Positions 12,032 through 55,896 of a stretch of 64,000 bases of DNA are shown here, in pieces. A program made the translations under genes and the position numbers. The DNA comes from Lacrimispora xylanolytica (GTDB lineage Bacteria > Bacillota > Clostridia > Lachnospirales > Lachnospiraceae): contig NZ_CP113524.1 in NCBI RefSeq assembly GCF_026723765.1, positions 620,001 through 684,000 of the forward strand, given 5' to 3'. Numbering within the stretch: position 1 is the stretch's first letter; every line of letters starts with the position of its first letter. Under the pieces are notes generated by a model. It made no database searches. It was not told the origin of the DNA and saw only the letters and a list, made by a program, of their open reading frames with translations.

Positions 12032-12586
12032 ATGGGAAAGATAAAAGTATCAGAGTGCGGAATAGAAGGACTTTATGTCATTGAGCCAACAGTATTTCCA
12101 GATTCCAGAGGCTATTTTGTAGAGACCTATAATCAGAACGATTTTAAAGAAGCAGGCCTTACCATGAATTTCGTACAGGATAATCAGTCCATGTCAGTAA
12201 AGGGCGTTCTTCGTGGCCTTCATTTCCAGAAGGAGTTTCCACAGGGAAAGCTGGTTCGTGTAATCAAAGGCAAGGTATTCGATGTGGCAGTGGATCTTCG
12301 TTCCACTTCCGAAACGTATGGAAAATGGTTCGGCGTTGAGCTGACAGCAGAAAACAAAAAGCAGTTCTATATTCCGGAAGGCTTTGCTCATGGATTCCTG
12401 GTTCTGTCTGATGAAGCAGAATTTGCTTATAAATGTACTGATTTCTATCATCCTGGTGATGAAGGCGGCCTTCTTTGGAGTGATCCGGAAATCGGAATCC
12501 AGTGGCCGATCGAAGAAGGTATGGAGCTGATTATTTCTGAAAAGGATCAGAAGTGGGGCAGCATTAAGGATACCTTTAAATTTTAG
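12032..12586 (+). CDS. rfbC: dTDP-4-dehydrorhamnose 3,5-epimerase
   Basis: 184 residues, full length for RmlC. The cupin motifs are visible: RGYFVETYNQNDF, LRGLHFQ with the substrate-binding His, GKVFDVAVDLR, and FYIPEGFAHGFLVL. It makes dTDP-4-keto-L-rhamnose, the third step of dTDP-L-rhamnose synthesis. RmlA, RmlB and RmlD are not in the window. It sits 15 bases before the wzm gene, which suggests rhamnose is in the exported glycan. A possible -10 box (TAGAAT) lies about 50 bases upstream. Confidence 0.92.
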   Translation: MGKIKVSECGIEGLYVIEPTVFPDSRGYFVETYNQNDFKEAGLTMNFVQDNQSMSVKGVLRGLHFQKEFPQGKLVRVIKGKVFDVAVDLRSTSETYGKWFGVELTAENKKQFYIPEGFAHGFLVLSDEAEFAYKCTDFYHPGDEGGLLWSDPEIGIQWPIEEGMELIISEKDQKWGSIKDTFKF

Positions 12587-12601: not shown

Positions 12602-13414
12602 ATGAATTATCTGGTTTCCTTGTTAAAAGAAATTATAACAAAAAGAAAGCTAATCCTGGAGCTGTCAAAAGCAGATTTTAAGAAACGATTCGTAGGTTCC
12701 TACTTTGGGATTGCCTGGATGTTCTTACAGCCTATGGCAACGGTGCTGGTCTACTTTTTCGTATTCCAGATGGGATTTAAAAGTGTGCCGCCGGTACCCA
12801 ATTACCCATATGTGCTGTGGCTCATCCCAGGCATAGTACCCTGGTTCTTTTTCAGTGAGGTACTGAACCTTGGAACCGGCTGCCTGCAGGAATATAATTA
12901 TCTGGTGAAAAAGGTGGTTTTCCGCGTGGAGATTCTTCCGGTCATCAAGCTGATTTCCTGCCTTATGGTACATGGAATCTTTGCTCTTATCATGATCGTA
13001 GTATTCTTATGCTATGGCGTGTTTCCAAAAGCAAGCTGGATTCAAATCGCTTATTACTCCTTTGCAAGCTCCATGTTTTCCCTTGCAATTGCTTATTTTA
13101 CAAGTGCCATACAGGTTTTCTTCAAGGACATGGCACAGATCATCGGCATTTGCCTGCAGTTTGGCATGTGGATGGTTCCTATCATGTGGGCACCGGAAAT
13201 GTTTAAAAATTTCCCTTCCTGGCTGCCGACTTTGCTTAAATTAAATCCTTTCTATTACATTGTAGCAGGATACAGAGACAGCATGCTGTCCGGAAACTGG
13301 CTGGTAGAAAGACCCACCCTTGGACTTTATTTTTGGACCGTGACAATCGTGATCATGCTCCTGGGGTTAAAAGTATTTAAAAAGCTGCGTCCTCATTTTT
13401 CAGATGTGTTGTGA
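12602..13414 (+). CDS. wzm: Polysaccharide ABC exporter permease (Wzm), copy 1
   Basis: 270 residues; AGAGGAG precedes the ATG. An ABC2-type permease with six membrane segments and the family pattern LSKADFKKRFVGSYFGIAWMF at the N-terminus and NPFYYIVAGYRDSML near the C-terminus. It exports completed glycan on a polyprenyl lipid with the adjacent Wzt. Its stop lies 22 bases before the Wzt start. A diverged second pair is at 42575-44635. Confidence 0.88.
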   Translation: MNYLVSLLKEIITKRKLILELSKADFKKRFVGSYFGIAWMFLQPMATVLVYFFVFQMGFKSVPPVPNYPYVLWLIPGIVPWFFFSEVLNLGTGCLQEYNYLVKKVVFRVEILPVIKLISCLMVHGIFALIMIVVFLCYGVFPKASWIQIAYYSFASSMFSLAIAYFTSAIQVFFKDMAQIIGICLQFGMWMVPIMWAPEMFKNFPSWLPTLLKLNPFYYIVAGYRDSMLSGNWLVERPTLGLYFWTVTIVIMLLGLKVFKKLRPHFSDVL

Positions 13415-13436
13415 CAAGCTTAGTATGGAGGATTCA

Positions 13437-14780
13437 ATGTCCGTAGAATCGAACAATCATGCAATATCAGTTAATAACGTAACAAAAATATATAAGCTAT
13501 ACGAAAAGCCCATCGACCGCTTAAAGGAAGCCATGAGCCCGACCCATAAAAACTATCATCGGGATTTCTATGCCTTAAACGGCATTTCTTTTGATGTGAA
13601 AAAAGGACAGACCGTAGGCATCATCGGAACCAATGGTTCCGGAAAGTCAACCATTTTAAAGATCATCACAGGAGTCCTGACCCCTACCGCCGGAACTATG
13701 GAGGTAAATGGCGTTATCTCAGCCTTACTGGAGTTAGGCGCAGGCTTTAACATGGACTATACCGGAATCGAAAACATCTATATGAACGGAACCATGATGG
13801 GATTCTCCAGAAAAGAGATGGATGACAAGCTTAAGGATATCCTGGATTTTGCAGACATCGGCGATTTTGTATACCAGCCTGTAAAAACATATTCCAGCGG
13901 TATGTTCGTCCGTCTGGCCTTCGCTCTTGCCATCAATGTAGAGCCGGAGATACTGATCGTCGATGAAGCCCTTTCCGTAGGAGACGTATTCTTCCAGGCA
14001 AAATGCTACCGCCGTATGGAAGAAATCCGCCAGAATGGAACCACTATTTTAATGGTTACACACGACATGGGTGCCATTATTAAATACTGTGATCAGGTAG
14101 TGGTATTAAACAAGGGTAATTTCATAGCTCAGGGCGAACCAGGAAAAATGGTGGATTTATATAAGAAAATCTTAGCCAATCAGATGGATGATTTGTCTCT
14201 GGAACTGGAGGAAATAAGGAGCGGAGAGTTAAATGACTTCTCCGGAGAACATGTGAAATCCAGAAAAGAAGCAAAGGCAGCCCAGGAAGGCTTTATGAAG
14301 GATAAGCTGACCGTGAATCCAAACCGTACCGAATACGGAGATAAAAAGGCTGAAATCGTAGATTTCGGTCTCCTTGATGAGCGGGGAAATGTTTCCAATC
14401 TTCTTTTAAAGGGCGAGTATTTCACCATCAAAGAAAGAATCCATTTCCACGGAGACATCGAAGCTCCTATTTTTACTTACACCATAAAGGACAAACGGGG
14501 AGCCGATTTGACCGGCACCAATACCATGTATGAAGCTTCAGACGTTGAGCCAGTGAAAAACGGCGACGAATATGAGGTGGAATTTAAACAGAAAATGACC
14601 CTTCAAGGAGGGGAATATCTGCTTTCCATGAGCTGTACCGGATTTGAAAACGGAGAACATGTTGTTTACCACCGTCTGTATGATATTGTGAACATAACGG
14701 TTATTTCCAACAAGAATACAGTGGGTATCTATGATATGGAACCGGAAGTAAGTCTAATGCTGCACCGGGACAGAGTGTGA
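13437..14780 (+). CDS. wzt: Polysaccharide ABC exporter ATPase (Wzt) with glycan-binding C-terminus, copy 1
   Basis: 447 residues from the ATG at 13437, chosen because GGAGGA at 13427-13432 precedes it; the earlier ATG at 13404 overlaps wzm. The ABC domain covers about residues 1-240: Walker A GTNGSGKST, signature-region YSSGMFVRLA, Walker B ILIVDEALSVGD, H-loop VTHD. The remaining 200 or so residues form a Wzt_C-like domain, including FTIKERIHFHGDIEAP. In E. coli O8/O9a and similar systems this domain recognises the chemically capped non-reducing end of the glycan and couples capping to export. The methyltransferase and kinase-like genes next door fit that role. Confidence 0.88.
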   Translation: MSVESNNHAISVNNVTKIYKLYEKPIDRLKEAMSPTHKNYHRDFYALNGISFDVKKGQTVGIIGTNGSGKSTILKIITGVLTPTAGTMEVNGVISALLELGAGFNMDYTGIENIYMNGTMMGFSRKEMDDKLKDILDFADIGDFVYQPVKTYSSGMFVRLAFALAINVEPEILIVDEALSVGDVFFQAKCYRRMEEIRQNGTTILMVTHDMGAIIKYCDQVVVLNKGNFIAQGEPGKMVDLYKKILANQMDDLSLELEEIRSGELNDFSGEHVKSRKEAKAAQEGFMKDKLTVNPNRTEYGDKKAEIVDFGLLDERGNVSNLLLKGEYFTIKERIHFHGDIEAPIFTYTIKDKRGADLTGTNTMYEASDVEPVKNGDEYEVEFKQKMTLQGGEYLLSMSCTGFENGEHVVYHRLYDIVNITVISNKNTVGIYDMEPEVSLMLHRDRV

Positions 14781-14793
14781 GGAGGAAGCATCA

Positions 14794-15573
14794 ATGAACG
14801 ATTTAAGCCCTGAAATCAGAAATTTATATGTAAAATATCAGGGAGACACAAAGGCGATTTTAAAAGACAATCCCAACCTGGATTATATGTATGCCCTTTC
14901 CGACATCCGGGAAAATCTGCTGGAATGGTACCAGTTTGAAGAAAACGCCTCCCTCCTGCAGATTGGTTCCGATTACGGCGCTCTTACCGGTTTATACAGC
15001 CGCAGAGTAAAAGAGGTGACTGTCTTAGAATCCAATCAGAACAATTTATCCTTTAACCGCCTTCGCCACCAGAAACGGGATAACATCAAATACGTTACCG
15101 GAAGTCTTGATACCTTCCCCGAAGAGCATTTTGACTATGTGGTCATGGTGGGATCTTTAGAAGAGCCTTATAAGGAACAGATTAAGAAAGCTAAGACTCT
15201 TTTAAAGCCAGAAGGAAAACTGATTCTTTCCCTGTGCAACCGCTTGGGCTTAAAGTATCAGGCAGGAGCTGTCTCCGATCAAACAAAACTTTCCAGACAG
15301 GAGCTTTTAGAACTGTTATGTGGAGAGGAAAAATGTCAGGGAAACGTAGAATTCTATTATCCCATGCCGGATTATAAGCTTCCTGTTACCATATATTCCG
15401 ATTCTTATCTTCCCTCGAAGGGGGATCTGACCCATGCTATTTTAGCTTACGATTATCCCAAATACCTGCGTTTTGATTTAGGAAAGATGTTTGATGAAGT
15501 ATGTGAGGGAAAACAGTTTCAGACATTTGCCAATTCATTTTTAACCATTTGGAGCCGCCATGAAGAAGATTAA
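14794..15573 (+). CDS. SAM-dependent methyltransferase, glycan-modifying
   Basis: 259 residues; GAGGAGG precedes the ATG. A class I methyltransferase fold: SAM loop LLQIGSDYGALTG (about 50-62), acidic strand end VTVLESNQ, motif DYVVMVGSLEE (about 112-122), then LLKPEGKLILSLCNRLGL. Its last 14 bases overlap the next gene, so the two are translationally coupled. Between a Wzt with a recognition domain and a kinase-like glycosyltransferase, it is a good candidate for methylating the terminal sugar of the growing glycan. The substrate is not proven. Confidence 0.75.
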   Translation: MNDLSPEIRNLYVKYQGDTKAILKDNPNLDYMYALSDIRENLLEWYQFEENASLLQIGSDYGALTGLYSRRVKEVTVLESNQNNLSFNRLRHQKRDNIKYVTGSLDTFPEEHFDYVVMVGSLEEPYKEQIKKAKTLLKPEGKLILSLCNRLGLKYQAGAVSDQTKLSRQELLELLCGEEKCQGNVEFYYPMPDYKLPVTIYSDSYLPSKGDLTHAILAYDYPKYLRFDLGKMFDEVCEGKQFQTFANSFLTIWSRHEED

Positions 15574-18500
15574 CTTTGTAAAATACAATAAAACCCGCAG
15601 GGAAGCCTTTCAGATCCGAACCAGTCTGGTGGAGGAAGGCGGAGTTCCCTATGTGGAAAAATCAGCCCTGACCCCGGAAGGCACTGCACATATCCGGTCC
15701 CTGGGCGACAAATATAAGAGTCTTATGGAGCAGAACCAGAGGTTAAAGGTGGCAGAGGTTTCTGTAAGCCCTGATGGGCGGACCGCCCGATTTGAATTCT
15801 TAAAGGGAGAGACCTTATCTGAAATTTTAGGCAGGGAGATTAAGGACGGAAAGGTTTCCGTCTCCAAGATGGAAGACGCCATTTCCATGATCTTAAGTGT
15901 AAAGGAAGATTGTATGCTTCCATTTCACTTAACTCCTGAATTTAAGGAGGTCTTTGGTGACCTATCCCAGGCCGATGAGAAAATCAAAAAAGACTGGACC
16001 TTCCAGGCATCCAACATAGACTGTCTCTTTGAGAATATTATGTTAACTGAAAATGGTCCTTATTGTCTGGATTATGAATGGGTATTTACCTTCCCGGTTC
16101 CAGTTAACTTTATTAAATTCCGGGTACTCTACTATTTCTATGAGCAGTATAAAAGCATCCTGAACTACGATTCCATGGAAGCATTTTTAGAGGAATTCGG
16201 AGTAGATGGGGATCGTCTGTCCCTCTATCAGGAGATGGAACGCAGCTTCCAGGAATACGTCCATGGAGAAAACCAGCAGATTTATCTGGTAAACTACATG
16301 CATGAGACCCATGCCATTCCAGATGATATGTTTGAAGTATCCCAGATCATTGATGATACCAAAGAGCAGATTTCCCAGATGGAAATGGAGCTTCATGAAA
16401 AAGATGTGACCATCACAAAACAGCAGGAAGTAAAGCGCCTGACGGATAACCATGTGACCAATCAGGATATGATCATCACCACTCTTCGGAAAGACTGCGA
16501 AAACATGGAAGAGATCATCAACCGATTAAGACGCCACGAGGCTTTGTTCTACCGGGTGGGAAGAAGGCTGAAACGCCTCTTTAACGAGAAATTCCCGGAA
16601 GGCACAAGAAAGCGAAAGCTGCTTTATTATACGAAAAATACATTGCTTCATCCCATAAATTCCATCCGCCTTTATACCACAGAGGAAGGCAGGAATTTAA
16701 TAGAAGGAGATATGAAGATCGGGGAAGCTTACAGAAAGCATGGAAAGCTGCGGTTCGTAAAAGAAGGCCATCCCATGGTCTCTATCATCATTCCGGTATA
16801 CAACCAGATTCATTATACCTACGCTTGCCTTGCCTCTATCTTAGAGCATACCAAAGATGTGGTATATGAGGTAATTATCGCAGACGATGTTTCCACAGAT
16901 GCCACTTCGGAGCTTACCAAATTCACCGAGAATCTGGTGATCTGCAGAAATGAAACAAACCAGGGCTTTTTAAAGAACTGTAACCAGGCAGCCAAGGCCG
17001 CCAGGGGAAAATATGTCATGTTCTTAAACAATGACACCCAGGTAACAGAAGGCTGGCTGTCCAGTCTTGTAAACTTAATTGAATCCGACTCCACCATTGG
17101 TATGGTAGGCTCTAAGCTGGTGTACCCAGACGGACGCCTTCAGGAAGCCGGAGGAATTCTCTGGAGTGACGGTTCCGGCTGGAATTACGGACGTTTGGAT
17201 GATCCGGAAAAGCCGGAATACAATTATGTAAAAGATGTGGACTACATTTCAGGCGCAGCCATTTTACTTTCCAATGAACTTTGGAAGCAGATCGGTGGCT
17301 TTGATGAACGGTTTGCCCCTGCTTACTGCGAGGATTCCGACCTGGCCTTTGAAGTAAGAAAAGCAGGACTTCGGGTGGTATATCAGCCTCTTTCCAATGT
17401 CATTCACTTTGAAGGTATCTCAAACGGCACCGATGTCAATGGTACCGGCCTAAAGCGGTATCAGGTAGAAAACAGCCGAAAGCTTCAGGAAAAATGGGCA
17501 GAAGAATTTAAAAAGCAATGTGAAAATGACGGAAACCCAGACCCCTTCCGGGCGAGAGAGCGAAGCCAGAATAAGGACATCATACTTGTGGTGGATCATT
17601 ATGTCCCCACTTACGATCGGGATGCCGGCTCCAAGACCACCTTCCAGTATCTCCAGATGTTTGTGGAAAAAGGTTACGTGGTAAAATTCCTTGGGGATAA
17701 CTTCCTTCATGAAGAACCTTATTCCACCGTTTTACAGCAGATGGGAATCGAGATTCTTTACGGCCCAGAATACCAGGCCGGAATCTGGAACTGGTTAAAG
17801 GACCATAGCGATGATATTAAGGTGGCTTATTTAAACCGTCCTCATATCGCAGCCAAATATATCGACTTTATTAAAAACAAAACCAACATAAAGGTAATCT
17901 ACTACGGCCATGACCTTCATTTCTTACGGGAAGGAAGAGAGTACGAGCTGACAGGAGACCCGGAAAAGAGGGAGTCCTCGGAGTACTGGAAATCCATGGA
18001 GCTGCGCCTCATGAGAAAGGCATCTGTTTCCTATTATCCTTCCTATGTAGAACGGGAAGCCATTCATGAAATAGAGCCTTCCATTCACGTAAAGGCCATC
18101 GTCGCTTACGTGTTTGAAACATTTTTAAGCCGCATTCCCGATGATTTTTCCAAGCGGGAAGGACTGCTGTTTGTAGGAGGCTTTGCCCATCCGCCAAACA
18201 TTGATGCTGTCTTGTGGTTTGCTAATGACATATTCCCATTAATCCGTCAGGTGCTTCCGGTGAATTTCTACATCGTAGGCTCCAAGGTAACGGATGAGAT
18301 CAAGGCCCTAGAGCAGCCGGGGAATGGAATCATAGTCAAAGGCTTTGTATCCGATGAAGAGCTTTCCAGACTGTATGCCTCCTGCCGAGTGGTAGTAGTT
18401 CCCCTCCGCTATGGAGCTGGCGTAAAAGGAAAGGTCATTGAAGCCCTTTATCATGGATCCCCTATCGTAACGACCTCCATCGGAGCTGAAGGAATCCCTG

Positions 18501-18673
18501 ATGCAGAAAAGGTTATGGCTGTTACCGATGATCCTCAGGGCTTTGCCCAGGAGGTAGTTTCCATGTATCGGGATACAGAACGCTGCAAACAAATCTGTGA
18601 AGAGACCCAGAATTACATCCGCAGATACCACAGCATTGATGCAGCCTGGAGCGTGGTTGGGGAAGATTTCTAG
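15560..18673 (+). CDS. Kinase-like / coiled-coil / GT2 / GT4 multidomain glycan enzyme
   Basis: 1037 residues. Residues about 1-250 form a domain with the catalytic pattern of choline/aminoglycoside kinase folds: Asp154-x4-Asn159 (DCLFEN) and Asp171 in LDYEW, twelve residues after the Asn, as in LicA-type kinases. The usual His before the Asp is replaced (SNID). Residues 264-335 are charged and heptad-like, a probable coiled coil. GT2 begins at 407 (VSIIIPVYNQ) with FLNNDTQV and EDSDLAFEVRKAG. A GT4-type domain starts near 673 and includes VGGFAHPPNIDAV (about 870) and PLRYGAGVKGKVIEA. The GT2-GT4 half is closely repeated at 49604-51757. It resembles a chain-terminating WbdD-like module joined to a polymerising glycosyltransferase; that is inference. 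Confidence 0.8.
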   Translation: MKKINFVKYNKTRREAFQIRTSLVEEGGVPYVEKSALTPEGTAHIRSLGDKYKSLMEQNQRLKVAEVSVSPDGRTARFEFLKGETLSEILGREIKDGKVSVSKMEDAISMILSVKEDCMLPFHLTPEFKEVFGDLSQADEKIKKDWTFQASNIDCLFENIMLTENGPYCLDYEWVFTFPVPVNFIKFRVLYYFYEQYKSILNYDSMEAFLEEFGVDGDRLSLYQEMERSFQEYVHGENQQIYLVNYMHETHAIPDDMFEVSQIIDDTKEQISQMEMELHEKDVTITKQQEVKRLTDNHVTNQDMIITTLRKDCENMEEIINRLRRHEALFYRVGRRLKRLFNEKFPEGTRKRKLLYYTKNTLLHPINSIRLYTTEEGRNLIEGDMKIGEAYRKHGKLRFVKEGHPMVSIIIPVYNQIHYTYACLASILEHTKDVVYEVIIADDVSTDATSELTKFTENLVICRNETNQGFLKNCNQAAKAARGKYVMFLNNDTQVTEGWLSSLVNLIESDSTIGMVGSKLVYPDGRLQEAGGILWSDGSGWNYGRLDDPEKPEYNYVKDVDYISGAAILLSNELWKQIGGFDERFAPAYCEDSDLAFEVRKAGLRVVYQPLSNVIHFEGISNGTDVNGTGLKRYQVENSRKLQEKWAEEFKKQCENDGNPDPFRARERSQNKDIILVVDHYVPTYDRDAGSKTTFQYLQMFVEKGYVVKFLGDNFLHEEPYSTVLQQMGIEILYGPEYQAGIWNWLKDHSDDIKVAYLNRPHIAAKYIDFIKNKTNIKVIYYGHDLHFLREGREYELTGDPEKRESSEYWKSMELRLMRKASVSYYPSYVEREAIHEIEPSIHVKAIVAYVFETFLSRIPDDFSKREGLLFVGGFAHPPNIDAVLWFANDIFPLIRQVLPVNFYIVGSKVTDEIKALEQPGNGIIVKGFVSDEELSRLYASCRVVVVPLRYGAGVKGKVIEALYHGSPIVTTSIGAEGIPDAEKVMAVTDDPQGFAQEVVSMYRDTERCKQICEETQNYIRRYHSIDAAWSVVGEDF

Positions 18674-18846: not shown

Positions 18847-19554
18847 ATGCAGGCAGTATTGCTGGCAGGCGGTCTTGGCACACGGCTCCGTTCCGTGGTA
18901 AATGACAGGCCAAAGCCAATGGCACTGATTGAAGGCAAGCCCTTCATGGAATATGTGGTATTGGAGCTTAAAAAGCATGGAGTCAAAGAGATTATATTTG
19001 CCGTAGGCTATAAGGGCTCTATGGTTGAGGAATATTTTGAAGACGGTACAAGATGGGGAATTAAGGTTTCCTATGCCTATGAAGAAGAGCTCTTAGGCAC
19101 AGCCGGAGCGATTAAGAATGCAGGGCGTCTCGTGACCGACGACCGGTTTCTGGCACTGAATGCAGATACCTTCTATCAGATTGATTATGAAAGACTGACC
19201 TCCTTAAGTGAGGAGCGGAATCTCCATATGGCTCTGGTATTGCGGGAAGTACCTGACGTATCCCGGTATGGACAGGCCCTTTTGGAAGATGGCTGGTTAA
19301 AATCCTTTGACGAAAAAACAGAAGAATCCGTAAGAGGAACCATCAACGGAGGCGTTTACTACCTTCGCCGTTCCCTTCTTGAAGAAATTCCGGAAGGAAA
19401 GGTTTCTTTAGAACATGATATGATACCCAAGTGGCTGTCAGAGGGAAAGAAGCTTGGCGGCTTTGTCAATGACGGCTATTTTATTGATATTGGAGTTCCA
19501 GAAGATTATTACCGGTTTGATGAAGATGTAAGGAAAGGAACGGTGACCATATGA
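18847..19554 (+). CDS. hddC: D-glycero-alpha-D-manno-heptose 1-phosphate guanylyltransferase
   Basis: 235 residues; GGAGGA precedes the ATG. A nucleotidyltransferase fold: AVLLAGGLGTRLRSV is the nucleotide loop, DRPKPMALI carries the conserved Lys, and LNADTFYQ holds the metal Asp. The family alone cannot separate guanylyl- from other transferases, but the next three genes are the other steps of the GDP-heptose pathway. It would transfer GMP from GTP to heptose 1-phosphate. It overlaps hddA by four bases. Confidence 0.8.
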   Translation: MQAVLLAGGLGTRLRSVVNDRPKPMALIEGKPFMEYVVLELKKHGVKEIIFAVGYKGSMVEEYFEDGTRWGIKVSYAYEEELLGTAGAIKNAGRLVTDDRFLALNADTFYQIDYERLTSLSEERNLHMALVLREVPDVSRYGQALLEDGWLKSFDEKTEESVRGTINGGVYYLRRSLLEEIPEGKVSLEHDMIPKWLSEGKKLGGFVNDGYFIDIGVPEDYYRFDEDVRKGTVTI

Positions 19555-20621
19555 TTATCAGAGGACGTGCGCCCCTTCGGGTAAGTTTTGGAGGAGGCGG
19601 AACCGATGTGGCCCCCTTCTGTGTGGAACAGGGAGGAGCTATCATTGGAAGTACCATTAATAAGTACGCCTATTGCTCCATAGTTCCAAGAGAAGACGAC
19701 CAGATCATCGTCCATTCCCTGGACTTTGACATGACGGTTAAATACAACACCAATGAAAACTATGTCTACGATGGCAGGCTGGACCTTGTAACGGCAGCCT
19801 TAAAAGCCATGGACATCAAACAGGGCTGTGAAGTTTATTTACAGTGTGATGCGCCTCCAGGCTCAGGCCTTGGAACCTCATCTACCGTTATGGTGGCACT
19901 TTTGACCGCCATGGCCAAATGGAAGGGCATTGAGCTGGACAGCTATGCCATGGCTGATTTAGCCTATAAAGTGGAACGAGAGGATTTAAAGATCGACGGA
20001 GGCTATCAGGATCAGTACGCAGCCACCTTCGGCGGCTTTAATTTCATTGAATTCCACGGTCGTAACAACGTAGTGGTAAACCCACTTCGAATCAAAAAGG
20101 AGATCATTCACGAGCTCCAGTATAACCTGCTTTTATGCTACACCGGCAATATCCATGTATCCGCCAACATCATAAAAGACCAGGTATCCAACTATGAAAA
20201 GAAAGATCCCTTTGATGCCATGTGTGAGGTAAAAGCACTTGCCTATGCCATGAAAGATGAGCTGTTAAAGGGAAATTTATATAGCTTTGGAAAGCTTCTC
20301 GATTACGGCTGGAAAAGCAAAAAACGTATGAGCACCAAGATCACCACTCCCCATATCGATGAGCTTTATGAAGAGGCCTTAAAAGCAGGCGCCCTTGGCG
20401 GAAAGCTTTTAGGTGCAGGCGGTGGAGGTTTCCTTTTGGTATACTGCCCATATAACGTGCGCCACAAAGTAGCAGCCCGCATGGAAGCAGCAGGCGGACA
20501 GCTCACAGATTGGAACTTTGAATTAAGAGGGGCCCAGGCGTGGATCACCGATGAAGCACGTTGGGACTATTCTGATATCCGGGTGAAGATACCGGGCGGA
20601 GAATATAAATTTAACCTGTAA
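19551..20621 (+). CDS. hddA: D-glycero-alpha-D-manno-heptose 7-phosphate kinase
   Basis: 356 residues of the GHMP kinase family: RAPLRVSFGGGGTDVAPFC at the N-terminus, ATP loop PPGSGLGTSSTVM near residue 105, and the C-terminal GGKLLGAGGGGFLLVYCP. It phosphorylates heptose 7-phosphate at C1 in the alpha configuration, giving the 1,7-bisphosphate for GmhB. The HddA type points to the GDP-heptose branch rather than ADP-heptose of lipopolysaccharide core. It starts at an ATGA overlap with hddC. Confidence 0.88.
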   Translation: MIIRGRAPLRVSFGGGGTDVAPFCVEQGGAIIGSTINKYAYCSIVPREDDQIIVHSLDFDMTVKYNTNENYVYDGRLDLVTAALKAMDIKQGCEVYLQCDAPPGSGLGTSSTVMVALLTAMAKWKGIELDSYAMADLAYKVEREDLKIDGGYQDQYAATFGGFNFIEFHGRNNVVVNPLRIKKEIIHELQYNLLLCYTGNIHVSANIIKDQVSNYEKKDPFDAMCEVKALAYAMKDELLKGNLYSFGKLLDYGWKSKKRMSTKITTPHIDELYEEALKAGALGGKLLGAGGGGFLLVYCPYNVRHKVAARMEAAGGQLTDWNFELRGAQAWITDEARWDYSDIRVKIPGGEYKFNL

Positions 20622-20650
20622 GAACACGGCACCAGGAGAATCAGAACATT

Positions 20651-21223
20651 ATGGATAAAATCGTATTTTTAGACCGGGACGGAACCATCAACAAAGAAGT
20701 AGACTACTTATACCGCCCGGAAGACCTCGTAATACTCCCAGAAGTAACAGGAGCTCTAAGACGTCTGAAAGAGCATGGCTTTCGCCTTGTGGTTGTGACC
20801 AATCAGGCAGGCGTTGCCAGAGGATTTTACAAGGAAGAGGATGTCAAGACGCTTCATGAAGCATTAAATCGGCATCTGTCAAAGGAAGGCGCTGAAATAG
20901 ACCAATTTTTCTACTGCCCCCATCACCCGGTACATGGAATCTCAGAGTATAAAACGGAGTGCCATTGCCGAAAACCGGAAACCGGAATGTTTGAAATGGC
21001 AGAAGCATATTTCCAAGTGGACAAGGCTAATTCCTATATGATCGGTGATAAGCTTTTAGACACAGAAGCCGGTAACCGGTATGGAGTAAGTTCTATTTTA
21101 GTTGGAACCGGATACGGAAAAGACATCTATGACTCCATGAAAGAGGAAGAGAGATCAGCGGCATTTGCTTATTACGCCCCTTCCATGAAGGAAGCAGTTG
21201 ATTATATACTAGGGCGTGTCTGA
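20651..21223 (+). CDS. gmhB: D-glycero-D-manno-heptose 1,7-bisphosphate 7-phosphatase
   Basis: 190 residues, HAD family. Motif I is FLDRDGTIN (nucleophile and acid/base Asp), motif II VVTNQAG, and the zinc-binding loop YCPHHPVHG...CHCRKPETGM is typical of GmhB; motif III/IV is IGDKLLDTEAG. It removes the C7 phosphate. The last codons and the stop lie inside the left arm of a 162-bp inverted-repeat element, so the native C-terminal end may have been altered by its insertion. Confidence 0.88.
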   Translation: MDKIVFLDRDGTINKEVDYLYRPEDLVILPEVTGALRRLKEHGFRLVVVTNQAGVARGFYKEEDVKTLHEALNRHLSKEGAEIDQFFYCPHHPVHGISEYKTECHCRKPETGMFEMAEAYFQVDKANSYMIGDKLLDTEAGNRYGVSSILVGTGYGKDIYDSMKEEERSAAFAYYAPSMKEAVDYILGRV

Positions 21224-21372
21224 AAACTCATTGCTCCATTCTGCACGTCCCGCTTTGCAGTATATTTAATCCAAATTCAGTTGGCGTAGTCCACTACGCC
21301 GCCTTCATCTGGAACAAATCTCCTACAAAGTGTAACGCACATCTTGAAACAAGCAGTTTTCAGACACACCCT
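21211..21372 (+). mobile_element. MITE-like element with 18-bp terminal inverted repeats
   Basis: The left arm AGGGCGTGTCTGAAAACT (21211-21228) and the right arm AGTTTTCAGACACACCCT (21355-21372) are inverted copies with one mismatch. The 126 bases between hold a perfect inner palindrome (GGCGTAGT-CC-ACTACGCC) and further imperfect pairing, so the whole element can fold into one long hairpin. It has no coding capacity. It supplies the stop codon of gmhB and separates it from gmhA. No target duplication was visible. Confidence 0.7.
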
Positions 21373-21395
21373 CGCCAGAGAAGGAGGAAAATAAC

Positions 21396-22031
21396 ATGGA
21401 ACCTATGAAATACTTAGAGGAGCTGATGGAACGCTATCCCAATCTTTCCTGTGTAAGGGAAGAGATTAAAAATGCCTATGAGATTCTTGAAGCCTGTTAT
21501 GTAAATGGCGGTAAGCTTCTCATCGCAGGAAATGGCGGAAGCTGTGCCGATGCAGAGCATATCGTTGGAGAACTGATGAAAGGCTTTGTAAAGCGCCGCA
21601 GCGTGTCTCCTGAGTTTCAGGAGACACTGAAAGAAATAGACCCAGAAATGGGAAGCGCCCTGGCTGAAAAGCTTCAGGGAGGACTTCCAGCCATTGCACT
21701 GACCGGACACCCTGGCCTTTCCACCGCCTTTTTAAATGATGTGGATGGAGATATGATATTTGCCCAGCAGACTTATGGGTATGGAAAAAAAGGAGATGTA
21801 CTCCTTGGTATTTCCACCTCAGGCAATTCAAAAAATGTAATGTACGCCATGACCGCTGCCAGGGCACTTGGCATGAAGACCATAGGACTTACGGGAAAAG
21901 ACGGAGGTCAGCTAAAAAAGACAGCCGACGTTTCCATAGTAGTGCCTGAGTCAGAGACATTTAAAATTCAGGAGCTTCACCTTCCCGTTTATCATGCACT
22001 GTGCCTGATGCTGGAAGAGCGGTTCTTTTAA
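21396..22031 (+). CDS. gmhA: Sedoheptulose 7-phosphate isomerase
   Basis: 211 residues with a SIS fold: AGNGGSCADAEHIVGELMKGF (about 48-67) and LLGISTSGNSKNVMYAM (about 130-146). This is the longer GmhA form with an insertion between the first helices (KRRSVSPEF...). It converts sedoheptulose 7-phosphate to D-glycero-D-manno-heptose 7-phosphate, the first step of the pathway. GAAGGAGG precedes the ATG, so it remains well translated despite the element upstream. Confidence 0.9.
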   Translation: MEPMKYLEELMERYPNLSCVREEIKNAYEILEACYVNGGKLLIAGNGGSCADAEHIVGELMKGFVKRRSVSPEFQETLKEIDPEMGSALAEKLQGGLPAIALTGHPGLSTAFLNDVDGDMIFAQQTYGYGKKGDVLLGISTSGNSKNVMYAMTAARALGMKTIGLTGKDGGQLKKTADVSIVVPESETFKIQELHLPVYHALCLMLEERFF

Positions 22032-22061: not shown

Positions 22062-23894
22062 ATGAAAGACAGACAATGGATAGGCAAGGAAGCCGCATGG
22101 AAAGATGAAATCATAGCAGCCGTACTTTTGCTGGCCTTTGCTTTCTTCATTAACAGGGGCATTGAAATAAAAGGACTTTACATGGATGACCTCTATCTGT
22201 GGTCCTGCTACGGAGAACAATCCTTCCGGGAGTATGTCTTCCCATTAGGAAGCACCCGGTTCCGTTTCGTATTTAATCTGATTTCATGGCTGGAGCTTAT
22301 GATCGCAGGTAATCATATTGGCTGGTTTGTACCAATCAATATACTGGTCAATGTCTGTATCGCCTATACGGTATACCGCTTCGGAAAGCGCTTATCCGGA
22401 AGGTGGACCATGGGATTTTTAACAGGTATCCTGTATCTCTTATCCCGTATGTCCTACTATCAGATCAGCCAGGTATACGGCTTAATGGAAACACTTGCTC
22501 TTTGGGCAGCCATTGGAATCCTTTACTGCCTGTATCGTTATATCACAGAGGAACCTGCAAAAAAAGCCCTCATTCCTTGTTCCGTGGCTCTGTATTTTGC
22601 CATCTGCTTTATCCATGAACGGTATATGGTTCTTCTGCCTCTTTTCTACGTTGCATTTTTGATGAAAAAAGAGCGAAAGCTAGTCCCCTGGATCTCCACC
22701 ACTCTGGCATTTGCAGCGGTACAGGTGATTCGTTTTTTCACCATCGGCAGCATTTCTCCGGCAGGAACCGGAGGTACTACGGTCGCAGAAACCTTTAAAA
22801 TAACCGGTGTTTTAAAATATGCCGTAAGCCAGATCCTTTATATCTTTGGTATCAATGCAGGCCCGGAGCATCTAAGCGGATTAAGCTGGGACGCATCACC
22901 TGCCTGGATTCGGGTCCTTGTCATGGTTTCCGGCCTTATGCTGGCAATTATGACCCTTATATTTCTTGCCGTGGTAATCAAAGAAAAAAAGGACCGCAAA
23001 ATCAGGTTAAAAGTCATTGGCCTGTTCCTTCTCTTTATTGCCTTGTGCATCGGATCCTCCAGCGTCACCATACGTGTGGAAACCCGCTGGATCTATGTCT
23101 CCATGACAGCCGCCTGGCTGTTTGCCGCCTATATGTGCGGGGTGACGGTGCCGAAAAAAGAGCTGAATGCAAATCTTTCCAAGCCTCTGTTATACTGCGG
23201 CCTGTTTGTTCTTTACGGTCTGATCATGTTCCCGGTGGAAAGCTTTTACCGCGGAAAATATGAGAATCTCTACTATTGGTCCAATCAGCTCCGCTACAAT
23301 TCTCTGGCAGAGGAGACCTACGGAAACTATAAGGATAAGCTTTTCGGTAAGAAAATATATATCATTGGCAATACTTATAAAATGAGTGATTTCACCGCCA
23401 ATACCTTTTTTAAGACCTTTGATAAAAAAAGGACAGCAGAAGGCACGGAAGTGACATTTATCGATTCCATGGGATCCATTGGACTCATCACTCCTAATAT
23501 GCTGATATTAAGGGAGGATCCAGCTCATAATGCGTTCCAGGATATCACGGATTTCGTTCGTAACTTAAAGTTTGAAAGAGTCTACGGCTGCTACGAAGAC
23601 GGCTGGCTTGATGAGAATGCCAAGGCCCGCATCATGGCAGGAAATGAAGGGAAGATAACCTTTAAATTCTATTATCCCGGAGTAATAACCGGAATGGAAC
23701 ACATCATAGTTACCGTCAACGGAAGCGAACAAAGAGTCATTCCAATAGATGCCAGCACCGTAATGGCTGAATTTGATGTAGCCCCCTCCCAGGTATCCGA
23801 GTTTACCTTTGAAAGCAACTTTTTCTATGATGCAGCAACGGAACAAAGAGGAGAAGACCGTCTGTCCGTAGTAGCGGATATCACAGCAAACTAA
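22062..23894 (+). CDS. Polytopic membrane protein, GT-C-like glycosyltransferase candidate
   Basis: 610 residues; AGGAGG precedes the ATG. About ten to eleven membrane segments fill the first 400 residues, and a soluble extracytoplasmic domain of about 200 residues follows. The first external loop carries an acidic motif (GLYMDDLYLW, near residue 45) like the catalytic DD/DE of GT-C transferases that use polyprenyl-phosphate sugars. No exact family is recognised. Followed by another membrane protein and a GtrB-like gene, it probably transfers a sugar outside the membrane onto a glycan or protein. Confidence 0.6.
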   Translation: MKDRQWIGKEAAWKDEIIAAVLLLAFAFFINRGIEIKGLYMDDLYLWSCYGEQSFREYVFPLGSTRFRFVFNLISWLELMIAGNHIGWFVPINILVNVCIAYTVYRFGKRLSGRWTMGFLTGILYLLSRMSYYQISQVYGLMETLALWAAIGILYCLYRYITEEPAKKALIPCSVALYFAICFIHERYMVLLPLFYVAFLMKKERKLVPWISTTLAFAAVQVIRFFTIGSISPAGTGGTTVAETFKITGVLKYAVSQILYIFGINAGPEHLSGLSWDASPAWIRVLVMVSGLMLAIMTLIFLAVVIKEKKDRKIRLKVIGLFLLFIALCIGSSSVTIRVETRWIYVSMTAAWLFAAYMCGVTVPKKELNANLSKPLLYCGLFVLYGLIMFPVESFYRGKYENLYYWSNQLRYNSLAEETYGNYKDKLFGKKIYIIGNTYKMSDFTANTFFKTFDKKRTAEGTEVTFIDSMGSIGLITPNMLILREDPAHNAFQDITDFVRNLKFERVYGCYEDGWLDENAKARIMAGNEGKITFKFYYPGVITGMEHIIVTVNGSEQRVIPIDASTVMAEFDVAPSQVSEFTFESNFFYDAATEQRGEDRLSVVADITAN

Positions 23895-23908
23895 GGGTAA
23901 GGTGACGC

Positions 23909-25294
23909 ATGAAACGTAAATATCTGTATTATCTCTTACCCCTGTTAGGAACGGTATTCGGTCTCTGGTATATTTTTTCCTCTACCTGCGACGGAATCTA
24001 TTCCGATTATGTCCGCCTGGTAAACAGCTATCTGCCAGATGTATGGAACCCAGACAAGTTTTTCGTTCCTGATATCCTGACCAGGGTACCGGCCAATTAC
24101 CTTGGAAGAATTATAAATATCTATTTGTTTGGCTACAACACCATGTTTGACCGTGTCCTGGGTGTACTTGCCTTAGGATTATCCGGAGGTGTAATTGCCG
24201 CCTACTGCCTGAGAAAAAAGGTACCATTCCTTTGGTTTTCCCTCCTTATGGTGGTAGTTTTCAGTCTGAACAAATGGGAAATGCTGACCAATGGAAGCGG
24301 CTGGACCCATTTTTTATCCTTTGTATGCTTTTATTATCACTATGAGATTTTAGACCGTGTATGGAGCGGAGAGGAAAAACCTCATGACAAGCGAAAGCTT
24401 GTATTACTGCCATTTGCCACCACTCTTTTAGTGGCAGGCCCATACTGCGCAATCTATTCCGTAACAGTGATATTAGCCTGCGGCGTTCTGTTCCTCTTAA
24501 AAAAGGGAAGAGGGAAATTGGATTACTGCCTGTATGGAGTAAGCGCCTTTATTTCCCTGGGCTTGTACCTTTGGAGCAATTCCTATGCAATCGAGGATCA
24601 TGCAGCCCCTGCCACAGGATCCATCCTGGATCAGTTAAAAGAAACCCCAGGCTTTTTTGTTCGATTCTTTGTAAAGTCATTTTCCTCCATGGTAATAGGA
24701 GGGGAGAGGGCAGAAGAGATATTTCATACCAATCTGCCGTTTCTGATTCTGGGATTCTTTGTCATAGCCCTGTATCTTATTGCCATCTGGTGGAACTTAA
24801 AATATCGCCTCTACCAGAGGACCATATTTCCGTTGATTCTCATTGTATCAGGTGGATTAAACCATGTACTGATTGTCATCTCCAGATGGATCTTTCTTCA
24901 GGAAAATTACGGGATAAGCTCCAGATATGCTCTGCAGTTCCAGACCGGCATTCTGGGAATCCTACTTACCTTCTGCTTGATTGTTCAAAGCAGAAAAAGA
25001 AGGCCAGAAGAGCTTGTCCGCCTCATGGGAGCTGTTGCGGCTGCGGTATTTCTCATAGGGAACATCTACACCACGTACCATGAAATTAAAAAAGCACCCA
25101 ACCGTTTGGAAATATATGAAAAAAGAGTAAAACTGGCACTTGATTTTGAGAATCTGTCAGACGATGAGCTTCGGGAGAAATTTGAATATAGAAAAAACCG
25201 CGAGGACAGCGGTGCCAAGGTGCGCAGCGCACTTACTATTCTTAAGGAAAATGGCTACAGCATATTTCATTCCCGTGAATCATCGAAAAATTAA
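23909..25294 (+). CDS. Polytopic membrane protein, unknown
   Basis: 461 residues, about ten hydrophobic segments, an early external loop with acidic residues (STCDGIYSDYVRLVN), and a charged cytosolic tail from about residue 390. It begins 14 bases after the previous gene and ends 55 bases before a GtrB-like gene. I do not recognise the family; size and topology fit a second GT-C-like transferase or an accessory of the GtrB system. Confidence 0.55.
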   Translation: MKRKYLYYLLPLLGTVFGLWYIFSSTCDGIYSDYVRLVNSYLPDVWNPDKFFVPDILTRVPANYLGRIINIYLFGYNTMFDRVLGVLALGLSGGVIAAYCLRKKVPFLWFSLLMVVVFSLNKWEMLTNGSGWTHFLSFVCFYYHYEILDRVWSGEEKPHDKRKLVLLPFATTLLVAGPYCAIYSVTVILACGVLFLLKKGRGKLDYCLYGVSAFISLGLYLWSNSYAIEDHAAPATGSILDQLKETPGFFVRFFVKSFSSMVIGGERAEEIFHTNLPFLILGFFVIALYLIAIWWNLKYRLYQRTIFPLILIVSGGLNHVLIVISRWIFLQENYGISSRYALQFQTGILGILLTFCLIVQSRKRRPEELVRLMGAVAAAVFLIGNIYTTYHEIKKAPNRLEIYEKRVKLALDFENLSDDELREKFEYRKNREDSGAKVRSALTILKENGYSIFHSRESSKN

Positions 25295-25349
25295 CAACGC
25301 AGCCCTTCCTATTGGGAGTATGAAGGTACCTGCTTGAGGAGCATAAATT

Positions 25350-26285
25350 ATGGAAAAAACACTATCGGTCGTAGTCTCATGCTATAACGAAGAACTGGCT
25401 CTCGACCAGTTCTATAAAGAGACGGCCAGTATTCTAAAGAGTCTTGACTGGGATTACGAGCTCATATTTGTCAACGACGGAAGCCAGGATAATACCATGG
25501 AGGTGCTGACCCAGCTGTCAGAAGGAGACGAAAAAGTAAAAGTCATCAGCTTCTCCCGAAACTTCGGCCATGAAGCAGCCATGATTGCAGGGCTGGATTA
25601 CAGCAAAGGGGACGGTATCGTCTGCATGGATGCAGACTTACAGCACCCTCCGGAATATCTGCCTGAAATCGTAAAGAAGTTAACAGAAGGATATGACGTC
25701 ATCAATATGGTTCGTACCAAAAATGAATCAGCAGGCTGGTTTAAAAATCTTGCCTCATCTGCCTTTTACCATCTCATCAACGTCCTTTCTGACGTTAAAT
25801 TTGAGCCAAATGCCTCAGACTTCTTCGCCATATCAAAGAAAGCTGGAAAGGTCTTAAAGGACAATTACAGAGAAAAGGTACGCTTCCTAAGAGGCTATGT
25901 TCAAAATATCGGTTTTCGCAAAACTACGATTGAATATGAAGCCAGAGTGAGAGTGGCGGGAGAGAGTAAGTACAGCATCAAAAAGCTGATCGCATTTTCT
26001 TTAAATACCATTATGTGTTTTTCCAACCTTCCTCTTAAGCTTGGCATTTACGCCGGCTGCGGCGCTGGAGTCCTGGGACTTGTCATGATGATCTACACCA
26101 TATGGAGCTGGGCCAGAGTGGGAACTCCCAATGGATATGCAACTACCATTGTACTGATCTGCTTTATGTTCGCGGTCCTTTTCCTGATTGTAGGTGTTAT
26201 TGGAAATTATATTGCAATTCTCTTTGCGGAGTTAAAGGACAGGCCCATATATATTGTGGGAGAGACGAAGAACGTGGAAGAGTAG
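25350..26285 (+). CDS. Polyprenyl-phosphate glycosyltransferase (GtrB/DPM1-like)
   Basis: 311 residues. The GT2 domain comprises LSVVVSCYNEE, LIFVNDGSQDNT and CMDADLQHPPEY (DAD metal motif), followed by RDEFRFLRG-like KVRFLRGYVQ and two C-terminal membrane helices (about 225-255 and 265-290). This is the usual architecture of enzymes that charge undecaprenyl phosphate with a single sugar at the inner face. It likely supplies the lipid-linked sugar used by the two membrane proteins upstream. It ends the operon. Confidence 0.85.
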   Translation: MEKTLSVVVSCYNEELALDQFYKETASILKSLDWDYELIFVNDGSQDNTMEVLTQLSEGDEKVKVISFSRNFGHEAAMIAGLDYSKGDGIVCMDADLQHPPEYLPEIVKKLTEGYDVINMVRTKNESAGWFKNLASSAFYHLINVLSDVKFEPNASDFFAISKKAGKVLKDNYREKVRFLRGYVQNIGFRKTTIEYEARVRVAGESKYSIKKLIAFSLNTIMCFSNLPLKLGIYAGCGAGVLGLVMMIYTIWSWARVGTPNGYATTIVLICFMFAVLFLIVGVIGNYIAILFAELKDRPIYIVGETKNVEE

Positions 26286-26340
26286 ATATCCGATCTCTGT
26301 TGCTATTTTATGCGGGTTATAGGATATTTTTAGAAATCAC

Positions 26341-26369
26341 TTGAATTTGGAAACAGAATTGATTATAAT
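26341..26369 (+). promoter_or_regulatory. Promoter of the antitoxin RNA
   Basis: TTGAAT at 26341-26346, exactly 17 bases, then TATAAT at 26364-26369: a near-consensus vegetative promoter. No protein gene follows, only a structured stretch facing the small toxin gene. Confidence 0.65.
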
Positions 26370-26375
26370 TAATAT

Positions 26376-26482
26376 ATAAAGAGGAACAACCACCTCATAC
26401 AAGAGGTTGGCCTATATTAAATGTACAGAATCGCCACCTGATACCGGTCAAAGTATACAAGGGTGGTTTTTCTGTACCCATT
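26376..26482 (+). ncRNA. Candidate type I antitoxin RNA
   Basis: About 105 bases from the predicted start to a hairpin in which ACAGAA and CCACC (26427-26440) pair with GGTGG and TTCTGT (26462-26476). An inner hairpin (CCACCTC / GAGGTTGG) lies near the 5' end. It runs towards the minus-strand toxin gene at 26503-26585, so the two transcripts can overlap at their 3' ends, as in TxpA/RatA and BsrG/SR4. The ends are predicted only from the promoter and hairpin. Confidence 0.5.
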
Positions 26483-26502
26483 TTTGGGTTTAAAGAAAAA
26501 CT

Positions 26503-26585
26503 TTACTTACGATTATTATAAATAAAGGTAAGCAATGCAATGATGAAATACCAAAAGCCATAAGGTCTTTAAAGTCAAAATCCAT
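26503..26585 (-). pseudogene. Holin-like type I toxin, frameshifted
   Basis: A strong ribosome site (GGGAGGTGAT) precedes ATG at 26585. The frame starts MDFDFKDLMAFG and then leaves the expected pattern, reading on to 26490. A second frame from the same point reads FIIALLTFIYNNRK and stops at 26503, the usual single hydrophobic helix and basic tail of small Clostridial 'putative holin-like toxins'. Restoring one base in GGTAT-TTC (to GGTATGTTC) joins both into a 27-residue peptide. So this is a type I toxin inactivated by a one-base deletion, a sequencing error, or a frameshift-dependent gene. Confidence 0.6.
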
Positions 26586-26656
26586 CTGCATCACCTCCCA
26601 TCTTATGTAAAATGGAAGGCCACCTCCTTGTATTAACATGATTGTTCCATATGAAT

Positions 26657-26685
26657 ATTTTACCATAAGAACTAGTGTTCTTCAA
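26657..26685 (-). promoter_or_regulatory. Promoter of the small toxin mRNA
   Basis: On the minus strand TTGAAG (26685-26680), 17 bases, TAAAAT (26662-26657). The predicted leader of about 65 bases contains an extra ribosome-like site (AAGGAGGTGG) before the real one; it may take part in structural control of translation. Confidence 0.6.
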
Positions 26686-26813
26686 ATGTAAAGTTAAAAA
26701 TATACCATTATTTCCTATTATAGGTGAAATATAGCATATAAGCATTGAATAGCGTTGCTGATGGATTTATTTGGAGCTGTAAGCTGGGCAAGTAGAGTGA
26801 AAATATTGTTATA

Positions 26814-26901
26814 AAAAATACGTCTTAATCGGTGGTTAGCTACGGTTTAATATGCTGCGGTAGCATATCAGACTTAGAACCCCGTCTCAAGACGTATTTT
26901 T
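26814..26901 (-). terminator. Long structured terminator downstream of the GH25 gene
   Basis: A perfect 13-bp inverted repeat (AAAAATACGTCTT / AAGACGTATTTTT) encloses 62 bases with an inner hairpin (ATATGCT / AGCATAT) and weaker GGTT/AACC pairing. Read on the minus strand it ends in a T run about 100 bases after the lysozyme stop, so it can end that transcript. It is larger and more structured than a simple terminator; a small RNA is also possible. Confidence 0.55.
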
Positions 26902-27002
26902 GTCATCTATATGATATTTTTGTATAGAACTCTGTCATAAATTTATGTTGTGACAGCCTCTTAGTCAAAAGTGGGACTGCAGTCGCCAATGATACAAATT
27001 GA

Positions 27003-30044: not shown

Positions 30045-30160
30045 ACCGTTCTCTTCCTCCTGTTCTAACATAACTATTTACACATAGTGCCATTATAGCA
30101 TAGGAGCAGATAGAATACCTAAATATTTTATTACGATTTGCAGACAAATTTCCAAAAATG

Positions 30161-31987: not shown

Positions 31988-32477
31988 AGCAGTACGCCTC
32001 CGTATATAAAATAATAAGTAAAATAGTATCAAATGAAATTTAATAGCATGTTCAATCTTGATGACAAATAATGATTATGTGAACATTATACCATTGAAAT
32101 GGTAAAAATCAATATTAGATTCATAATAAAGAATCAACCTAAATAGACGCATCCAGGCCCTATTATCACCCTAAACACGTACTGTGTATGAAAAAAAGTA
32201 CAATTATTGAAGGAAAATCCAGTTTCGTAATAATTATGTAAGAAAATGAACAGAGAAAAGTTATAGTAATTTCCCAGAATATGTATTATACTGTTCCATG
32301 TGATGGAGGAATTGATAGCTTCTTCCGGAAATGTTAATTTTATTTATATTTTGCAAAATATGCAAAAAATGTAAAAAAAGTATTGATAATTTCCATTTGA
32401 GGAAGTATAATTACCTCGTAATGCTATTAGGAATTTCAGAAAAGTATTTCAAGAAGAAAAAGGAGAGTGCATTTATT
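31988..32477. other. Divergent intergenic region
   Basis: 490 bases between the divergent licCA fusion and the plus-strand surface protein gene. No coding frame is supported. TTGAAG at 32207-32212 with an AT-rich -10 (TAATTA-like) 17-18 bases on is a candidate promoter for the surface protein, giving a long leader of about 240 bases. No operator recognised. Confidence 0.4.
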
Positions 32478-43366: not shown

Positions 43367-43375
43367 GGAATTAAT

Positions 43376-44635: not shown

Positions 44636-44645
44636 GGTGTATAAA

Positions 44646-55480: not shown

Positions 55481-55551
55481 GTTTTTGCTCCTTAGTTTAC
55501 TATAAAAAGTATACCATAAAAAGAGCGAAAAAGCCAGTAAAATCAAGGGTT

Positions 55552-55896
55552 TCAGCCGGTTTTAAGAGCTTTTGGCTGCTCGATTTCAAGCCCCGTCATA
55601 AGCCAGTCGAATTGTTGCCAGGTAATATTTTTTGCCTCATTGCTATTTCTTGGCCATCGATACTTGCCTTGAACAACGTCAAGCCGTTTATAGAGAAGAA
55701 CCATTCCATCAGGCTCTCGGAGCAGAACCTTGATTCGGTCACATCGTCTGCCACAGAATAGATAAATTGATCTGGCATCCGGTTCCGCTTTCAACTGGTC
55801 TAGAATGATGGCGTAGAGTCCATCTATGGACTTACGCATATCCGTATAGCCTGTAATGATATAGATGTTGATTGCTGTGGAAATATCACCTAGCAC
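55552..55896 (-). CDS. tnpB: IS66 accessory protein TnpB
   Basis: 114 residues from a GTG at 55896, chosen because GGGAGGTG lies seven bases upstream; the ATG at 55917 is within tnpA. Family pattern: YTDMRKSIDGLYAII, IYLFCGRRCDRIKVLLRE, GMVLLYKRLD, and WLMTGLEIEQPKA. It overlaps the end of tnpA by a few bases, as usual for IS66. It is needed with TnpA for transposition in studied members. Confidence 0.9.
   Translation of the reverse strand: MLGDISTAINIYIITGYTDMRKSIDGLYAIILDQLKAEPDARSIYLFCGRRCDRIKVLLREPDGMVLLYKRLDVVQGKYRWPRNSNEAKNITWQQFDWLMTGLEIEQPKALKTG

Follow-up and report, generated by a model that had tools for sequence, protein, structure and literature searches.

Control of chain length by a coiled-coil ruler, together with capping of the chain end, has been worked out for the O-antigens of Gram-negative bacteria. 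Could a Gram-positive bacterium finish an exported glycan in a comparable way? The question is raised by a locus in the 4.5 Mb genome of Lacrimispora xylanolytica. In the 64,000-nucleotide stretch analysed here (the window; contig NZ_CP113524.1, positions 620,001 to 684,000), nucleotides 12602-18673 code for Wzm, Wzt with a Wzt_C domain, a class I methyltransferase (MT) and a protein of 1037 amino acids (aa) whose modules are, in order, a kinase-fold domain, a long helix, and glycosyltransferase (GT) modules of types GT2 and GT4. We think it likely that the MT and the 1037-aa protein form a polymerase-ruler-terminator of the Klebsiella pneumoniae O7 ORF6 type in the Lachnospiraceae, capping a glycan for Wzt export. 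The closest named relatives of the 1037-aa protein are those of [Clostridium] aerotolerans and Clostridium sp. 12(A), in a clade that includes Lacrimispora species. The elements of the locus are:

12602..13414, + strand: Wzm, ABC-2 polysaccharide export permease (Pfam PF01061, ABC2_membrane, 1.9e-12)
13404..14780, + strand: Wzt, ATP-binding cassette (ABC) ATPase (PF00005, 2.6e-23; PF14524, 1.6e-41)
about 14325-14738, + strand: Wzt_C glycan-reading domain, C-terminal in Wzt, residues 308-445 (PF14524, 1.6e-41)
14794..15573, + strand: class I S-adenosylmethionine methyltransferase, partner of the kinase (PF08241, Methyltransf_11, 1.9e-8)
15560..15573, + strand: overlap of the MT and kinase genes, 14 nt
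15560-18673, + strand: 1037-aa open reading frame (ORF), from the ORF list
15560..16276, + strand: kinase-fold domain, residues 1-239 (structure model, Foldseek matches to LicA, APH, Mph and other kinases, invariant residues)
within 15560..16276, + strand: kinase residues K34, D154 (nt 16019-16021), N159 (16034-16036) and D171 (16070-16072)
16322..16591, + strand: single long helix, probable coiled-coil ruler, residues 255-344 (predicted model, length conservation, heptad test)
16592..16771, + strand: post-helix segment, residues 345-404
16772..17479, + strand: GT2 module, about residues 405-640 (PF00535, Glycos_transf_2, 2e-26)
17576..18670, + strand: GT4-type module, about residues 673-1037 (PF13692, Glyco_trans_1_4, 3.5e-24)

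These elements bear out much of what a first-pass annotation had described: an MT gene overlapping the 1037-aa ORF, Wzm and a Wzt with a long C-terminal domain upstream, and kinase, coiled-coil helix, GT2 and GT4 in one polypeptide.

The kinase-fold domain

Pfam gave no model above its cut-off in residues 1-400 of the 1037-aa protein, the lone sub-threshold match touching the kinase being REX1B at residues 217-294 (17.6 bits against a cut-off of 24), so annotation could easily miss this domain. NCBIfam had no match within residues 1-240, and a sequence search of solved structures with the kinase returned nothing significant; its top match was a phosphotransferase at E 0.94, whose weak alignment spans the Asp-x4-Asn...Asp stretch. 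The motif itself, Asp154-x4-Asn159 with Asp171, is legible in the kinase (NIDCLFENIMLTENGPYCLDYEW).

An AlphaFold model of residues 1-239, built on an alignment of 75 rows, had a predicted local distance difference test score (pLDDT) of 96.3 and a predicted TM-score of 0.91, and a model of residues 1-345 from a 30-row alignment had a pLDDT of 85. For both, the top match in a Foldseek search of the PDB was pneumococcal LicA. The 50 matches listed for the 1-239 model are all kinase folds (E 4.8e-6 to 1.5e-4, probability 1.00), among them LicA (E 4.8e-6), APH(3')-Ia, macrolide and aminoglycoside phosphotransferases and protein kinases. TM-scores on the query range from 0.37 to 0.54, with APH(3')-Ia reaching up to 0.54, and the superpositions are loose (root-mean-square deviation 7-16 Å), so that our claim is limited to the kinase fold and names no subfamily. 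Within that limit, residues 1-239 are modelled as a two-lobed kinase fold carrying the Lys, Asp-x4-Asn and Asp, in agreement with the kinase-like domain first proposed, and the domain would presumably be catalytic.

Absence of a kinase fold, or free variation at the Asp/Asn/Asp positions, would have refuted the first-pass annotation; neither was found, and the catalytic-type residues are invariant. Across the 75 aligned rows, with a mean column identity of 27%, K34, H44, F128, D154, N159, D171, E173 and W174 never change. The agreement of 59 of these rows is biased, because the scan patterns from which they came contained the motif, but the 30 rows from a whole-domain similarity search are free of that bias and keep K34, D154, N159 and D171. 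A further 20 distant loci were a manual choice, made chiefly for the shortness of their open frames; 18 come from the window's family and two from a wider search of the phylum, and three stem from genomes already among the 75 rows. All 20 keep Asp-x4-Asn...Asp, 19 by pattern and L147 by reading. The middle part of the kinase varies in length from 57 to 134 residues among relatives.

One feature departs from the usual pattern: in place of H-x-D there is N-x-D, whose Asn (N152) never changes in the 30 rows and is nearly invariant in the 75. Taken with the loose superpositions, this could indicate a pseudokinase that binds substrate or serves as a scaffold, the MT alone being active. We consider this improbable, as the invariance of K34, D154, N159 and D171 in 75 rows goes beyond what scaffolding needs, and the exchange D441A in a comparably placed domain abolishes the activity of O7 ORF6 (PMC11231755; statements on published systems refer to excerpts of the papers cited here by PMC number).

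The top structural match, a choline kinase, raises another possibility, namely that the target of the kinase is not the chain end but a small molecule such as choline, or a linkage group such as the sugar between glycan and wall, and that the helix is merely a dimerising spacer. The same window holds, at 30161-32032 on the - strand, what we take to be a LicC-LicA fusion with a nucleotidyltransferase and a choline-kinase-like domain, although this gene may already supply the choline kinase role. LicA and the APH phosphotransferases are the closest solved folds to residues 1-239, but they share only about 10% identity with the window kinase, stand in another context and presumably have another substrate. 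The window domain sits amid MT, helix and GT modules in the module order of a chain terminator, with Wzt_C adjoining, and we regard an action on small molecules as very improbable.

Pairing of methyltransferase and kinase

The scan for relatives matched 266 stretches, 201 of which were confirmed, and the best 80 are referred to here as named loci. An MT accompanies the kinase in all 80. In 44 of them the two are fused in a single MT-kinase-helix-GT2-GT4 frame some 1300-1390 aa long. Another 32 are split, 19 of these with the 14-nt overlap seen in the window, and four are short, cut or broken. The 20 distant loci likewise all have an MT, fused in ten and directly upstream, within about 1.1 kb, in the other ten. 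Eight of the fused distant frames are 708-779 aa long, with the MT first and the kinase second, and Pfam found no GT in the four of them that were scanned. Eight of nine distant proteins read by eye have a segment like G-x-GFSE...LRIDP after the kinase, where O7 ORF6 has a segment resembling a carbohydrate-binding module (CBM). The fused or split state switches at least four times on a quickly built tree of 77 rows, in which the window protein falls in an all-split clade of 20.

Given this constant pairing and frequent fusion, the separation of the two genes in the window is a peculiarity of its lineage and not the design. The first-pass annotation had made it the defining feature, a view we abandon; the comparison of gene order that it suggested shows the MT-kinase pair in every named and distant locus, mostly fused among the 80. 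In a Lacrimispora xylanisolvens record (L077) a break interrupts the kinase frame at about 205 codons; the same split match is seen in G023.

Separate polypeptides, as in the window and the 32 split loci, could also carry out two separate modifications, the kinase adding phosphate to the chain end or to some other sugar and the MT O-methylating a sugar hydroxyl, with no methyl phosphate formed. Precedents for methylation of this kind are WsaE of Geobacillus stearothermophilus, which is held to end chains with a 2-O-methyl cap (PMC2943079), and the WbdD of Escherichia coli O8, which is an MT only (PMC3482155). This explanation seems unlikely to us, though less so than the two above: MT and kinase occur together in every locus examined, often as one protein, and in the characterised protein whose modules are ordered alike it is the phosphate that is methylated (PMC11231755).

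The long helix as a candidate ruler

In the model of residues 1-345, a short low-confidence stretch leads from the kinase to one helix of 90 residues, 255-344. A coiled coil had been proposed at 264-335; a long helix is predicted there, extending over about 255-344, and its heptad contrast is modest. When residues 257-335 were shuffled 20,000 times, 107 of the shuffles reached their a/d contrast; over the entire 1037-aa protein, the best heptad windows begin at 251-253. Among 76 relatives, the segment 263-335 (48% mean identity) keeps its length in 73 and the segment 336-400 in every one.

Two comparisons within the protein weigh against reading too much into these figures. A kinase-lobe stretch starting near 39-42 has a heptad score of 0.446 against 0.494, and the heptad signal, taken from sequence alone, is modest. 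The kinase N-lobe (residues 30-90, 51% identity) has equal length in 89% of relatives, which weakens the constant length of the helix as proof of a ruler and leaves it as mild support.

A basic amphipathic stretch at about residues 326-349 straddles the end of the helix, with a hydrophobic moment of 0.70. The same scan gave 0.76 for the C-terminal region of the WbdD of E. coli HS and a maximum of 0.80 anywhere in the window protein.

Wzt, Wzm and export

The genome has two Wzt_C genes, both within the window. A Wzt lies alongside the kinase gene in 79 of the 80 named loci and 17 of the 20 distant ones, and the upstream sequence fetched contains a Wzm match in 36 of the 80. In the other 44, 12 of which have less than 10 kb of upstream sequence, it contains none, a point against the proposed mechanism. 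Elsewhere in the genome, a Wzm 66-69% identical is present in seven of eight genomes tested from these 44, and the Wzm of L120 may sit just past the fetched flank, judging by coordinates. Forty-three of the 44 loci still have a Wzt; L086 and L121 were read in detail.

Comparison with characterised terminators

The first-pass annotation had called the system WbdD-like. As a yardstick we used a 708-aa protein of E. coli HS, annotated only as a class I methyltransferase and encoded between wbdA and wzt, which we took as WbdD by place and length; the published WbdD has 708 residues (PMC3482155). Like the window system, WbdD combines an MT, a kinase fold and a coiled coil next to Wzt, and a Wzt with a C-terminal glycan-recognition domain stands alongside in the window as well. 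WbdD joins the three parts in one protein, whereas the window MT is a separate gene; the fused relatives join them too and add the GTs. WbdD works with a recruited WbdA and is itself free of GT modules, whereas the window protein carries its own GT2 and GT4. The Asp-x4-Asn...Asp pattern is legible in the E. coli HS protein too.

Common descent is another matter. In hmmsearch the MT profile scored 1.0 bit and the kinase profile -1.9 bits against the E. coli HS protein, hhalign of the kinase gave a probability of 2.4%, and homology to WbdD was rejected on these scores. WbdD is also absent among the 50 structural matches listed for residues 1-239. As a statement of descent the label is not supported; a WbdD-like mode of working is probably right, with the enzymatic function as its inferred part. 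The general idea is not new, as the WbdD paper mentions in passing comparable assembly systems for O-linked glycans of Gram-positive bacteria (PMC3482155).

The better parallel is O7 ORF6, whose kinase is described as unlike WbdD in sequence and structure (PMC11231755). In vitro, O7 ORF6 yields both phosphorylated and methyl-phosphorylated acceptor, and in D441A cells polymer was detected by blot only, which its authors interpret as unexported (PMC11231755). It shares with the window system an MT, a kinase of no recognised family, a coiled coil and two GTs, the terminator and polymerase at opposite ends of the coil, and a Wzm/Wzt cluster with rml genes (PMC11231755). In the fused relatives a single polypeptide carries the modules in this order, as in O7 ORF6, whereas the window MT is split from the kinase. 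The joining of terminator, ruler and polymerase, presented at first as a novelty, has precedents in O7 ORF6, in O12 WbbB (PMC11231755) and partly in WsaE, a Gram-positive protein that combines an MT with two GTs beside wzm/wzt (PMC2943079). No kinase is described for WsaE in the excerpt, in contrast to the kinase fold of the window protein.

Profile searches linked the window system by sequence to a Gram-negative protein laid out like O7 ORF6; the background was 5,115 ORFs and 1,500 shuffles (best unrelated ORFs: MT 13.0, kinase 6.3 bits; best shuffles: MT 5.3, kinase 7.1). A plasmid-borne 1457-aa protein of Pseudomonas asturiensis scored 78.2 bits with the MT profile and 30.2 with the kinase profile. 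By eye its layout is MT, kinase, CBM-like segment, helix, GT2 and GT2, which is the published layout of O7 ORF6. A Citrobacter braakii protein was matched by the MT profile alone (81.8 bits). Both proteins directly follow genes for an ABC permease and ATPase. When named plasmids were scanned with the kinase of the window by itself, nothing matched, and the MT-kinase protein of locus L140 matched two Gram-negative records, both through its MT part; the relation of the kinase to a Gram-negative protein is drawn from the profile score. With the full-length Pseudomonas protein as query, 482 plasmid records matched; coverage exceeded 80% for the protein itself alone, and the 14 other rows listed matched the GT part only. 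Searching E. coli with the Citrobacter homologue gave no match. The Citrobacter plasmid (L156), typed as conjugative, bears an rml-wzm-wzt-MT-GT cluster, in which the kinase region retains Asp-x4-Asn.

Several points count against the O7-type assignment. The likeness to O7 ORF6 is one of layout, the sequence match being to the P. asturiensis protein and not to ORF6 itself, and WsaE is likened by description and not by sequence (PMC2943079). A weak local alignment (3.7 bits) puts Lys34 on a His in the Pseudomonas protein, and the Citrobacter kinase region scores 3.4 bits, under the best shuffle, with Glu replacing Asp171. The window protein lacks the CBM-like domain, its long helix beginning soon after the kinase, and has GT2-GT4 where O7 ORF6 has GT2-GT2. 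Apart from these points, the setting differs from that of O7: the host is Gram-positive, genes of GDP-heptose type lie nearby, and no ribofuranose system was seen.

Proposed mechanism

What we infer for this locus (catalysis, a methyl-phosphate product, ruler action, the sugars and a surface acceptor) would fit together as follows. The GT2 and GT4 modules, near the membrane, would lengthen a lipid-linked glycan, while the helix of residues 255-344, about 13.5 nm long at 1.5 Å per residue, would keep the kinase apart from them. Only chains that reach the kinase would be phosphorylated, at the non-reducing end, and the neighbouring MT would methylate the phosphate. This cap would end growth, the C-terminal domain of Wzt would recognise the capped chain, and Wzm/Wzt would export it.

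Neighbouring genes and other loci in the window

On the + strand from 12032 the order is RmlC-type epimerase, Wzm, Wzt, MT and 1037-aa protein, followed by four heptose-type genes. The flanking genes are:

12032..12586, + strand: RfbC/RmlC-type dTDP-sugar 3,5-epimerase (PF00908, 1.4e-75; relative in 34 of the 80 named loci)
18847..22031, + strand: four genes with families like those for GDP-D-glycero-D-manno-heptose, likely sugar donor supply (Pfam families)
starts of the four, + strand: nucleotidyltransferase 18847, GHMP kinase 19551, HAD phosphatase 20651, SIS isomerase 21396

The pathway name for the four is our assumption; relatives of all of them are present in 47 of the 80 loci. After them, the stretch 22062-26285 codes for two large proteins of 610 and 461 aa, which we take to be membrane proteins, and for a 311-aa glycosyltransferase resembling GtrB. 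Together they may be an extracytoplasmic side-chain system; within 26000-27100 we saw no GtrA-like ORF. Beside the LicC-LicA-like gene, the proteins at 27003-28823, 28941-30071 and 32331-34166 have what we read as choline-binding-type repeats.

A second Wzm/Wzt cluster lies at 42575-51757, with its own Wzt_C (64.5 bits) and a low GC content of 0.28-0.36. Its MT scores 13.0 bits with the MT profile. The ORF at 44637-47717 reads as a GT2 with a HAD-like part, a HAD-like part being seen also at 40409-42544, and the GT2-GT4 protein at 49604-51757 is 50% identical to the C-terminal part of the 1037-aa protein and has no kinase. Adjoining this cluster, at 53879-57589, are ORFs that we take to be IS66-type transposase genes or fragments.

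Distribution and significance

Within the window's genus, the kinase domain was found in all 24 genomes searched, a count that takes in the window's own genome, a fragment and a broken copy. At the level of the family, sampled with one genome per genus, 130 of 299 genomes have it. A phylum-wide search found it in five of 398 genomes, three of them in the window's family (its own genome, G261 and G285), so the kinase family looks concentrated there. In a literature search over mostly open-licence papers, judged by title and the start of the abstract, no kinase terminator in a Gram-positive was recognised. As far as such searches could show, the wide Gram-positive spread of a kinase-bearing terminator outside any Pfam family is new. 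The system differs from known ones in its Gram-positive host, in having no Pfam model above its cut-off on the kinase, in a GT4 as second GT and in the genes of GDP-heptose type. The capsule of C. bolteae, of alternating Man and Rha (PMC8353590), is a possible product of a relative and is not tied to these genes.

A broader reading has, in our estimate, an even chance of being right: that the Lachnospiraceae hold a large unrecognised family of MT-kinase terminators with a near-fixed ruler, which cap ABC-exported surface glycans of Gram-positive gut bacteria with methyl phosphate and are a Gram-positive counterpart of O-antigen length control. Its layouts would be the split arrangement seen in the window, the fused MT-kinase-helix-GT2-GT4, an MT paired with a kinase gene, and an MT-kinase extended at its C terminus. 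If this is true, the non-reducing ends of these glycans would bear a defined charged cap, chain-end recognition and length control would become testable in Gram-positive bacteria, and the fused proteins would offer compact objects for study.

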